Assembly: GCA_902168195.1 (NCBI GenBank)
Contig: CABHOJ010000027.1
Span: 1-41,038 of the forward strand
From: an uncultured Methylotenera sp.
Lineage (GTDB): Bacteria; Pseudomonadota; Gammaproteobacteria; Burkholderiales; Methylophilaceae
DNA length: 41,038 nt
Direction of reading: 5' to 3'
In this document: piece by piece, positions 10,200 to 26,624 of the stretch
Position numbering within the stretch: position 1 is the stretch's first letter
Layout: the number at the start of each line of letters is the position of its first letter
Translations under genes and position numbers: made by a program
The notes under the pieces: model-generated
Told to the model about the DNA's origin: nothing
The model's database searches: none
Seen by the model: the letters and a program-made list of their open reading frames with translations, nothing else

Positions 10200-10787
10200 T
10201 TATGCAGCTTTTGGCAGTGCCCCGAACAGGTTGGCGTAGGTCTTTTCGATATCCACATGTAACGCCACCGTATTCTCCACACCGATCCTCAGTGACGGCC
10301 CGAATCTGGAGATCACTACCCCGGCGCGGTTCAGCAGTCGCTCGATCGCCGTCGTCGTCACCGTCACGTATTCTTCGATGTGCATACGATGACCGAACGC
10401 GATGATCTCTTGGATGGATTCCATCGCGATCTCGGAGAAGCCGAAGTGATGTTCTCCTTCGGTTTCGATCGCGAACCGGCTGAGCTCCCAAATGTTGGGA
10501 TGCTCAGGCGCCTTGTTCCCGTTCAGCAGTTCGGGGAAGGAGTCTTTGAGCATGTAAGGGCCTTCCGTCGGTAATATCCGCCAGCAGCCGCGCAGACCGC
10601 CTTCAGGTTCGCGCATCAACATGTACAGGGGTTCCATCGCGTCGTAGCCATCGATCTCCATGCCGCTGATGATCGGCACATCCCATCCCATCCGTCCTTT
10701 GAACACCTTGGCCCTCAACTTGTGCATATCCCACAAGTCCTTGCTATTGAAATCCCTTCTCGCAGCGATACGAATACTGAGTGACAT
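10200..10787 (-). CDS. acyl-homoserine-lactone synthase (LuxI family, LasI-like)
   Basis: Invariant LuxI residues LRAKVFKGRMGWDV, EIDGYD, ELSRFAIE, VTVTTTAIERLLNRAG.ISRFGP; GGGGGA RBS before ATG. Confidence 0.95.
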   Translation of the reverse strand: MSLSIRIAARRDFNSKDLWDMHKLRAKVFKGRMGWDVPIISGMEIDGYDAMEPLYMLMREPEGGLRGCWRILPTEGPYMLKDSFPELLNGNKAPEHPNIWELSRFAIETEGEHHFGFSEIAMESIQEIIAFGHRMHIEEYVTVTTTAIERLLNRAGVVISRFGPSLRIGVENTVALHVDIEKTYANLFGALPKAA

Positions 10788-10853
10788 TGATTCCCCCTAT
10801 CCAGATTGGTTATGCAGGTGGAATAAATAGTTATGCGTTTTGACTAGGAAGAT

Positions 10854-10873
10854 AACTATCAGGATTGATAGGT
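10854..10873. promoter_or_regulatory. lux-box-like palindrome upstream of the AHL synthase gene
   Basis: AACTATCAGGATTGATAGGT; arms match at 7 of the 8 outer positions; about 66 bp upstream of the synthase ATG. Confidence 0.8.
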
Positions 10874-10984
10874 GGGATTTAAGAAGACACGAGCGAGAAT
10901 GATGGGGCCTTGACCTATCAGGCTTTCCGGGGGTGTTCGGTGGCCAGGTCAAGATTGGACCTAGACCCAAAGAAGGGATGAATC

Positions 10985-11284
10985 ATGAAATTAGACGACC
11001 TGAACCACACTCAAGACGCCATCGATATTCTCGATATACGAGATCTACGAAAAGCGAGGCGCGAGAGCCAATCGAAATTCTGGAAACGTTTCGGGGTGAC
11101 GCAATCCACAGGCAGCCGATTCGAGCAGGGGCTTGGGATCCCGGTCTCTGTGGCGATCCTGGTCAAACTCTATCTTGAAGGGAAAGTGTCTGAAGGCGAT
11201 CTTCAGCGCGCGAGAAGAGCGGCGAGAGCTGCCACCCCATTGGATAAAGCCGATACGCAATCAGCCTGGGTTAATCAGGCCTAG
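10985..11284 (+). CDS. RsaL-like HTH repressor of quorum sensing
   Basis: KARRESQSKFWKRFGVTQSTGSRFEQGLGIPVSVAILVKLYLEGKVSEGDL resembles the RsaL signature (ARRESQ..FW.RFG..QS.GSRFE.G..IP); lies between luxI and luxR homologs in the opposite orientation. Confidence 0.85.
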   Translation: MKLDDLNHTQDAIDILDIRDLRKARRESQSKFWKRFGVTQSTGSRFEQGLGIPVSVAILVKLYLEGKVSEGDLQRARRAARAATPLDKADTQSAWVNQA

Positions 11285-11986
11285 ACTAATCGCTTTGACG
11301 ATCGCCTGTTGACGGGTATTCACCTTGAATTTGAATCGAATATTGGAGATATGAAAATTCACAGTCGCTTCCGAGCATCCCAGAATCATTGATATCTCCC
11401 AGGAGGATTTACCTATGGTGGCCCATTTCAAGCATTCTAGTTCGCGCTTGGTCAAATGGGCCTCTTCCTTTATCGGCTCCGATACCTTGAAGAACTTGAG
11501 AGACGATTCGAACAGATAATCTCGGATCAGCGATAACTCAGCCATCGAATGATCCAGTTCCCGGATGAATTTTTTATCCGACAAGGAATCTGACACAAAG
11601 CTGATGACGCCAAATTCATTACCAGGACCATGGATGGGGAAGGTGATCCCCGACCGGATCCCGTAACTGCATGCTTCCTCGTATAGTTGCTGCTGATTAG
11701 GTAATTGGAACGTCTGGGGTTGCCAGATCAGGGGGACAGCGCTTTTGAGACAGTGACTGACCGTCGGATCGACATAGTGCAACTTCTCATTATCGTAAGT
11801 CGTACGCCAACTATCTGAATAATTGCTTCTCAGAAATGCGTTCTCAAGCGGCATGTTCTTGTTTGGGACCACCCCATACAGGGTTTGCTCAAACCCATGC
11901 TCATGCGCTAGTTTGAATAGCGCCTCAGACCAAGCGTTTTCTGTCGTGAGATTGAGCAACTCGAGGAGCTTCTCGATTTTTGCCAC
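11261..11986 (-). CDS. LuxR-family AHL receptor/transcriptional activator (LasR-like)
   Basis: Autoinducer domain WRTTYDNEKLHYVDPTVSHCLKSAVPLIW; LuxR HTH LTKRELECLKWATIGKSSWEISMILGCSEATVNFHISNIRFKF. Confidence 0.95.
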   Translation of the reverse strand: MAKIEKLLELLNLTTENAWSEALFKLAHEHGFEQTLYGVVPNKNMPLENAFLRSNYSDSWRTTYDNEKLHYVDPTVSHCLKSAVPLIWQPQTFQLPNQQQLYEEACSYGIRSGITFPIHGPGNEFGVISFVSDSLSDKKFIRELDHSMAELSLIRDYLFESSLKFFKVSEPIKEEAHLTKRELECLKWATIGKSSWEISMILGCSEATVNFHISNIRFKFKVNTRQQAIVKAISLGLINPG

Positions 11987-12055: not shown

Positions 12056-12091
12056 ACTTATGCATAATGAATAGATATTTTGTGCATAAGT
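12056..12091. repeat. inverted repeat in the divergent luxR/glycoside-hydrolase-like intergenic region
   Basis: ACTTATGCATA (12056-12066) and TGTGCATAAGT (12081-12091), 10/11 complementary, 14 nt apart. Confidence 0.7.
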
Positions 12092-12212: not shown

Positions 12213-13580
12213 ATGAGCATGCGGAATCTATATGCACTCTTAGTGCTATTGCTGATGTCACAGGGTATCCATGCCGAGCTGATGCCATGGCCGGATAACC
12301 CGCGCCAGTGGAGTTATGCAGGGCAGCCCATGATCCTTGCCGGAGCCAGCGATGATGACAATCTGTTCCAATGGCCGGAAGAAAGCTTGATACCGCATCT
12401 GGATCGCCTGAAACTGGCTGGCGGCAATCTGGTGAGGAATACCATGAGTGATCGCCGAGACAAGGGGTTCGAGCTTTACCCTTACTTGGAAATAAGGCCG
12501 GGTCGTTATGATCTGGATCGCTGGAACCCGACATATTGGGCAAGGTTCGATCGCTTCTTGGAAGAGACGCATCAACGCCAGATCATGGTACAGATCGAAC
12601 TATGGGATCGTTTCGATTATTCCGACCATGGCCAGATCAAGCATTGGCAAAACCATCCCTACAATCCGAAGAACAACATCAATTACAGCAGCTGGAAGTC
12701 ACGGCTTGGTATGCGCTACCCGGACCACCCCGGCAAGAATAGGCAGCCATTCTTTTTCACGACGCCGGAACAGCATCACAACCAGCTGTTAATGGATTAT
12801 CAGAAGCGGTATGTCGATAAAGTACTGAGCTATAGCCTCAAATACGACCACATTCTCTATTGCATCGATAACGAGACGAAAGCAGGGGAGGCGTGGAGCA
12901 GATACTGGGCGGTCTATCTTAAAGACCGGGCTGCATCGGCGAACAAGCGCATCTACGTCACGGAGATGCTGGATGAGCGAACCATGGATCCGGCCGTCCA
13001 TGGCAGGACGATAAATCATCCGGAGCTATACGACTTTATCGAGGTCTCGCAAAACAATCATAACGACGGCATCGCACATTGGCAGAATCTGCTGCGGGTC
13101 AGGGGCTATCTGGAAGCTTTGCCGAGGCCGATGAATTCGATCAAGGTCTATGGTGCCAACGGTAGCAAGTATGGCAATGAGCAACAAGCCATAGCGCGAT
13201 TCTGGCGAAACGTGTTGGCGGGCACCAGTGCCATACGCTTTCATCGTCCTGATTCCGGGTTAGGTTTGAGCGGAGCATCTACCGGCGCTCTGCGTTCCTT
13301 GCGATCGCTGCAAAGCAAAGTCTCATTAGCCGGCATCGTGCCGCGAGAAGTATCAGCGATGAAAGGGGAGGCCTACGTGGCTTCGATCGGAAAAACCTAT
13401 CTGATATACCTACCGCGAGGTGAAGCCCTCATCGATATGACCATCCCGAACACGATGAAACTGGAATGGCTGAATCTGGAAACGGCCAAATGGCACCCGG
13501 GTCACTTAAAACCACGCGAAGAGGGTTTGGCTCTCAACGCACCCAGTGCAGGGCATTGGATTGCCCTTATCGGGCAATAG
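12213..13580 (+). CDS. secreted glycoside-hydrolase-like (TIM-barrel) protein
   Basis: Signal peptide MRNLYALLVLLLMSQGIHA; GH-like layout (GGNLVRNTM, YDHILYCIDNET, C-terminal beta domain with LEWLNLETAKW). Family not identified. Confidence 0.65.
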   Translation: MSMRNLYALLVLLLMSQGIHAELMPWPDNPRQWSYAGQPMILAGASDDDNLFQWPEESLIPHLDRLKLAGGNLVRNTMSDRRDKGFELYPYLEIRPGRYDLDRWNPTYWARFDRFLEETHQRQIMVQIELWDRFDYSDHGQIKHWQNHPYNPKNNINYSSWKSRLGMRYPDHPGKNRQPFFFTTPEQHHNQLLMDYQKRYVDKVLSYSLKYDHILYCIDNETKAGEAWSRYWAVYLKDRAASANKRIYVTEMLDERTMDPAVHGRTINHPELYDFIEVSQNNHNDGIAHWQNLLRVRGYLEALPRPMNSIKVYGANGSKYGNEQQAIARFWRNVLAGTSAIRFHRPDSGLGLSGASTGALRSLRSLQSKVSLAGIVPREVSAMKGEAYVASIGKTYLIYLPRGEALIDMTIPNTMKLEWLNLETAKWHPGHLKPREEGLALNAPSAGHWIALIGQ

Positions 13581-26100: not shown

Positions 26101-26624
26101 TCCTTGTACTTGGAGATACCGGCCGCTTCTTCCAGGAACACCCGTAGTTCTTCGGGTTTGGCTTCGACGATGCGGGAGATCGTGTTCTGGCCGATGATGG
26201 CGTAAGCACGGCCCCCCAGACCTGTGCCCAGGAACAGGTCGGCGACATCCCGTCTGCGAACAGGCGTGTTGTTGATGTAATAACTGGAGCCTTTGTCGCG
26301 CTCGATCACCCGTTTGACGGCGATCTCTGCATATTGCGACCATTCGCCGCTGGCGCCACCCAGGCTGTTATCGAAGATCAGTTCGACACTGGCGCGTGAG
26401 ATCGCCTTGCGATTGCCGGAGCCGTTGAAGATCACATCCGACATAGAATCGCCGCGCATCTCTTTGGCACTCGATTCCCCCAGCACCCAGCGCACAGACT
26501 CCATGACGTTCGATTTGCCGCAGCCGTTCGGGCCGACCACGCCTACGCGCTGGCCGTGGATATGCAACGTGGTCGGATCGACGAAGGACTTGAAACCGGC
26601 GAGCTTGAGGTGAGTGAGGCGCAA
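23112..26624 (-). CDS. smc: chromosome segregation protein SMC
   Basis: Walker A GPNGCGKSN, coiled coils and hinge, LLSGGEKALTALALVFALF signature, FCLMDEVDAPLDD Walker B. Confidence 0.98.
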   Translation of the reverse strand: MRLTHLKLAGFKSFVDPTTLHIHGQRVGVVGPNGCGKSNVMESVRWVLGESSAKEMRGDSMSDVIFNGSGNRKAISRASVELIFDNSLGGASGEWSQYAEIAVKRVIERDKGSSYYINNTPVRRRDVADLFLGTGLGGRAYAIIGQNTISRIVEAKPEELRVFLEEAAGISKYKERRRETELRLRDTRENLTRVEDIRREMEKQIARLESQAVITEQYHRLQNALKLAQGQLWLLRKRDAAVQMDKAQRQVEKLVNALEAQMADLRKTESLVEQLRQQHYAATEQVQTAQTRYYEANAEVSNLEQQVKHTQEARERLTAQLQQIQQQSMKIDGQLVTLQENLEQLVLQQHQATSQQNEAEQALQDARKGLPEQERAFSAAQAGHTAAQKAFFDTEQAIKLESASLEHLNRSQQEQQQRLQRLEQELKSLQLPDAGELEAKHTQAKTLQQQLAELERQVAAFSDQEQRSITDIAQLREQQLKDQRALTQAEAQIASLVKLQQAMGQEIELEGWLKSAGLANADRIWQKVTIQEGWETALESVLGARLNALLQAELHTDTSQRPPAALVLCEPGPDHRQEPNPALTPLLSIISLKQPNLAGLMHDWLANLYLADDADISQLRGQLRPGEALVNRAGDIFTRHSVSYHAAQSALHGVLERQRELETLQAGLPELQAAVRHSSTALAETERGLQSLRQQAQTLQQELRQATQEQHRLTLEIQRMQQQQAHVLERQKAMQAEQAALQQRMDTAKSEIKQKQTGLANLKQALIEQQALRERTQNTRREAELVLNEARVALLKAERLAQEKGFDGKLISNNIKEINNKLLVSNEEKSSLAIRLKETEILLEAARMDNLMANLETALVNKQARESDLAQARNHMAGTEQELQAQERARMQNEQQLHPQRDKLEQARLQEQQARLLYEQCAAELTATGLEEVELGAKLSPTAKVSEIDRQVGSTQQEIEALGPVNLAAIQELASERERKTYLDNQAADLDQAIQTLEDAIRRIDKETRTRLQHTFDEANRHFGELFTTLFGGGQARLELLGEEILDTGMQVFAQPPGKKNSTIHLLSGGEKALTALALVFALFRLNPAPFCLMDEVDAPLDDSNTERFCNMVKKMSERTQFLFVSHNKITMEMAQQLIGVTMQESGVSRIVEVDIEAAMQMNAELVTPN

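Follow-up and report, generated by a model that had tools for sequence, protein, structure and literature searches.

The window, that is, the whole 41,038-nt stretch of DNA analyzed here, is the entire contig C27 of a 1.68-Mb MAG (77% complete) that belongs to the Methylophilaceae. Three neighboring genes in this window form a quorum-sensing (QS) cassette: a luxI-type gene encoding a LasI-like AHL synthase (10200..10787, minus strand, 195 aa), an rsaL-type repressor gene (10985..11284, plus strand, 99 aa), and a luxR-type gene encoding a LasR-like receptor/activator (11261..11986, minus strand, 241 aa), which has a GTG start with GGAGGA just 5' of it. The rsaL gene converges on luxR and is transcribed divergently from luxI, and reading of the minus strand gives luxR>, <rsaL, luxI>. 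Both the ORF coordinates and the related loci place rsaL between luxR and luxI, as the L1 topology requires. At their 3' ends, luxR and rsaL share 24 bp in the window; this overlap is 14–26 bp long in most relatives and 11 bp long in the P. aeruginosa record NZ_CP131792.1 (hereafter L155). This 847-kb record, which is typed as a conjugative plasmid, carries a complete lasR-rsaL-lasI.

Pfam analysis revealed Autoind_bind (PF03472, 111 bits) and GerE (PF00196, 72.5 bits) domains in LuxR and an Autoind_synth domain (PF00765, 123 bits) in LuxI, all far over the cut-off, as well as an RsaL-like HTH domain (PF22495, 74.3 bits vs. a cut-off of 27) in the 99-aa protein. The best PDB matches of these proteins were full-length LasR (6mvn, E = 1.9e-56), LasI (1ro5, E = 1.1e-59), and RsaL (5j2y, E = 5e-14), respectively. 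Identity to the P. aeruginosa proteins was 39% for LuxR (over 239 aa), 50% for LuxI, and 39% for RsaL, and the LuxR N-terminus MAKIEKLLELL could be aligned with MALVDGFLELE of LasR. The first-pass annotation of this DNA had placed the three ORFs here in the lasR-rsaL-lasI order, which is borne out by coordinates and strands. The motifs it had quoted were also found in the receptor (VDPTVSHC and IGKSSWEIS...CSEATVNFH), the repressor (ARRESQ.KFW.RFG..QS.GSRFE), and the synthase (VTVTT...RAG...SRFGP). Its proposal that a beta-proteobacterium carries a Las-type R-L-I circuit is supported by domains, PDB matches, and gene order, the host being a Methylophilaceae MAG.

The proteins were then compared with LasI and LasR at positions which we take to be catalytic and AHL-pocket residues. 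All of R23, F27, W33, D44, D47, R70, E101, and R104 of LasI are kept in the window LuxI, and so are T142 and T144. Retention of these two residues agrees with the earlier suggestion that the Thr is compatible with a 3-oxo-AHL, which would be the predicted product of this enzyme. In the window LuxR, LasR residues Y56, W60, R61, Y64, D73, T75, V76, W88, T115, G126, and S129 are kept, among them the invariant pocket residues (Y56, W60, D73, and W88). On the other hand, it departs from LasR at four pocket positions (Y47L, A70H, L125F, and A127V), and its ligand may therefore differ from that of LasR. This protein is the sole autoinducer-binding LuxR found in the genome, so that, subject to the incompleteness of the MAG, the cassette is probably its sole AHL circuit.

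Comparative analysis covered 53 genome loci that have a close luxI gene, some of them cut by contig ends. The large majority show the luxR>, <rsaL, luxI> arrangement, in which luxR and rsaL overlap or are close neighbors. Exceptions were a Burkholderia dolosa locus in which rsaL could not be detected, a luxI of Mixta with neither luxR nor rsaL nearby, and three loci (L046, L049, and L050, from Solimicrobium, Pseudoduganella, and Duganella) with the order luxI>, rsaL>, <luxR. Compared with the usual cassette, luxI points the other way in these three; rsaL and luxR are still convergent and overlapping or close.

The convergent/divergent arrangement with rsaL between luxR and luxI is a described class (PMC3386692), and its occurrence in beta-proteobacteria has also been described (PMC3742214, PMC3386692). 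The BraR-RsaL-BraI system of plant-beneficial Burkholderia has the L1 topology and was reported to be under strict RsaL repression; BraI makes 3-oxo-AHLs, the likely cognate signal being 3-oxo-C14 (PMC3742214). The window cassette is a further example of this arrangement and not a new system. Since BraR-RsaL-BraI had already been described in beta-proteobacteria, on which the first-pass annotation was silent, the cassette is less surprising than it first appeared. Judged by the published description of BraI, the two systems share the beta-proteobacterial R>-<L-I> organization, but the window belongs to Methylophilaceae, for which our literature search found no report of such a cassette. The resemblance to P. 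aeruginosa LasR-RsaL-LasI includes gene order and orientation, the 3' overlap of luxR and rsaL, and protein homology, whereas the pocket residues and the host are different, and the targets probably are as well. Cassettes of Massilia, Novimethylophilus, and Gallionella (L002–L054) have the same topology and promoter elements, mostly with 60–79% LuxI identity, but occupy other genomic locations, and their fetched flanks share no neighbors with the window.

The distribution of the cassette in Methylophilaceae is narrow. True LuxI proteins (>100 bits) were detected in 5 of 187 genomes of the family, and the same five genomes all contain a QS RsaL. A sixth RsaL-like match over the cut-off (in genome G026) groups with non-QS proteins. 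The five positive genomes are spread over four genera, and the nearest named cassette, with the closest luxI and luxR by identity, is that of another member of the family, Novimethylophilus kurashikiensis (79% for LuxI and 68% for LuxR). Both observations would be expected if the cassette were an ancestral Methylophilaceae trait which was lost in most members and never transferred. Phylogenetic analyses, which had been proposed together with the first description of the locus, speak against this scenario: the window LuxI was placed near Oxalobacteraceae and Novimethylophilus sequences, and a single Methylophilaceae clade was rejected for both LuxI (AU test, P-value = 6.7e-5) and LuxR (P-value = 1.3e-5).

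Genomic context also argues against the ancestral origin. Seven relatives share the conserved block mltG-tmk-holB-pilZ-tatD-MBL-h9625 that adjoins the cassette in the window. This argues that the contig is native and not a contamination, and the cassette is absent from the corresponding site in all seven. Two genomes (G017 and Methylobacillus G011) carry the cassette elsewhere while lacking it at the window's syntenic site. Cassette loci differ from one another, and when flanking genes of the window were sought near other cassettes, none was found except one weak match (27%). Considering that the trees reject one Methylophilaceae clade and that seven syntenic relatives have no cassette at the site, horizontal acquisition of the cassette as a module is the probable course of events. 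Its loss in most lineages seems less likely, and we regard an ancestral trait as an improbable explanation, albeit the best of those that compete with our own. The choice offered initially between transfer and deep conservation may therefore be answered with both, as the class is common in beta-proteobacteria and this copy appears, from trees and synteny, to have moved horizontally. Close plasmid-borne relatives were also sought and none was found, the best match (49.5%) being to the lasI of a P. aeruginosa megaplasmid record; a plasmid search with RsaL gave matches in two plasmid records only.

The rsaL-luxI intergenic region contains a palindromic lux box, ACCTATCAATCCTGATAGTT (10854..10873, minus strand), which ends 66 nt before the luxI ATG and is a predicted site for LuxR-AHL. 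It has the top lux-box score in the window and agrees with the consensus of relatives. Of 47 other intergenic regions, 46 have a lux box (at least 13/20 match) at the equivalent position, ending 57–98 nt before luxI, and P. aeruginosa lasI also has one there, with lower identity. Downstream of the box, two sites resembling the RsaL operator TATGN7CATA are predicted on the minus strand: operator A, TAGTCAAAACGCATA (10832..10846), with 6/8 arm positions and 7 nt after the lux box, and operator B, TATTCCACCTGCATA (10811..10825), with 7/8 arm positions and 28 nt after it. Operator A has the same register as a site established experimentally in P. aeruginosa, TATGAAATTTGCATA, which lies 7 nt after the lux box in L155. 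In P. aeruginosa, the published RsaL operator, TATGnAAnTTnCATA, overlaps the -10 box of lasI (PMC11139201).

In 43 of the 47 promoters, counting that of the window, a site of this type reaches 7 or 8 of 8 arm positions, compared with about 1.2 expected from shuffling, and 36 of 47 have such a site in the register of operator B. The RsaL-type sites of beta-proteobacterial cassettes lie +7/8 or +28 to +30 from the lux box, and both registers reach 6/8 or more in fourteen promoters (shuffle mean 0.03). Because the promoters are related, these counts are not independent. The +7 register of P. aeruginosa is shared by a subset of the beta-proteobacterial promoters. Taken by themselves, the two window operators do not reach significance (P ~0.07) and would not be noticed without the relatives, in which their registers are conserved. 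The promoter resembles that of P. aeruginosa in that the lux box is followed, within the luxI promoter, by a predicted TATGN7CATA-type operator, and differs from it in the second predicted register at +28, which is absent from the published consensus site of the lasI promoter.

On the other side of the cassette, a gene for a 455-aa protein (12213–13580) with a signal-peptide-like start is divergent from luxR. The protein has only a subthreshold match to DUF6298 and is hydrolase-like by appearance. No lux box above chance was found in the intergenic region between luxR and this gene. The same region contains an inverted repeat, CTTATGCA...TGCATAAG (12057–12064 and 12083–12090), which looks like RsaL-type half sites, yet is within chance for TATGN7CATA and was not found 5' of luxR in the relatives checked.

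A genome-wide search for lux boxes gave one other two-mismatch match, ACCTATCAATTCAGATAATT, at 26227–26246 of contig C30 (L159:4229–4248), 58 nt upstream of a gene for a 721-aa ABC protein (L159:4307–6472). Among seven other lux-box-like matches examined in the genome, this was the only one clearly at a promoter, the rest being inside ORFs or weak. The ABC protein is similar to the type I secretion ATPases HlyB (592 bits) and LssB (458 bits), both under the subfamily cut-offs. In the cassette-bearing Methylobacillus G011, a lux box was found upstream of a homolog with 67% identity, and in Gallionella G941 one lies farther upstream of the homolog. Altogether, a good lux box precedes the ATPase homolog in three of seven QS-positive genomes (at -79, -224, and -548 from the called ORF start); none was found upstream of the homolog in the four other QS-positive and two QS-negative genomes. 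Because the upstream lux box is not universal in QS-positive genomes, we propose this ATPase as a QS target solely as a lineage-specific hypothesis. In genome G939, the ATPase homolog is located near a protein that ends in RTX-like repeats.

These data suggest the following model. LuxI would use acyl-ACP and SAM to make a medium- to long-chain AHL, probably a 3-oxo form. AHL-bound LuxR dimers would bind at the lux box and switch on luxI, together with rsaL via the shared bidirectional promoter. As RsaL builds up, it would occupy the TATGN7CATA operators that lie over the core promoter of luxI, capping AHL synthesis. Such a circuit, with luxI and rsaL both under activation by LuxR-AHL and luxI also under repression by RsaL, would be an incoherent feed-forward loop. 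Activation by LuxR-AHL and repression by RsaL are known for P. aeruginosa (PMC10746200). The regulon may include the HlyB-like type I secretion ATPase on the separate contig as a likely output. A more specific proposal is that beta-proteobacterial L1 cassettes have two RsaL registers about two helical turns apart (+7 and +28), at which RsaL may bind cooperatively, and that type I secretion is under the control of the mobile cassette in this methylotroph lineage, via a lux box at the promoter of the secretion system; we consider this combination possible but rather doubtful at present.

A decaying relic, with intact genes and a regulation that is no longer Pseudomonas-like (e.g., degenerating RsaL operators), might be suspected from the imperfect window operators (6/8 and 7/8), as many Massilia promoters have 8/8. 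Decay does not fit well with three intact ORFs, in which catalytic and most pocket residues are retained, with a lux box that fits the consensus of relatives, or with a second lux box in front of the secretion gene, and we find it quite unlikely. Considering all sequence-based evidence, the locus is very probably a complete L1-type (LasR-RsaL-LasI) AHL quorum-sensing cassette that is probably functional and was probably acquired horizontally by a Methylophilaceae lineage. The known range of a well-studied signaling circuit with a built-in brake is hereby extended to methylotrophs of a family that seldom carries it. The finding suggests that the three genes and the promoter travel as one unit, and provides both a candidate output (type I secretion) and an operator prediction for the capping of AHL by RsaL outside Pseudomonas.

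The first-pass annotation had made its interpretation depend on the alignment of the 99-aa protein with RsaL. This protein does align with P. aeruginosa RsaL. In the phylogenetic tree, it groups with QS-linked RsaLs, including that of P. aeruginosa, apart from a non-QS RsaL-like family (support 100/99); the tree was used for this QS versus non-QS split only, because it is poorly resolved within the QS group. There is hardly any chance that the protein is merely a generic RsaL-like HTH protein of the kind common in Burkholderiales outside QS, since, even though 171 of the 400 genomes from this order encode an HTH protein with PF22495 above the cut-off, with no adjoining luxI or luxR in the loci examined, the window protein falls on the QS side of the tree, its gene holds the conserved position, and the promoter it shares carries predicted RsaL-type operators. 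The separate family (L101–L130, Burkholderiales) consists of proteins of ~100 aa with PF22495 scores of up to 97 bits and the core ..FWSRIGVTQSGGSRYESGRNMPKPVRELLRLVH.., and its genes are located outside QS loci in varied neighborhoods.
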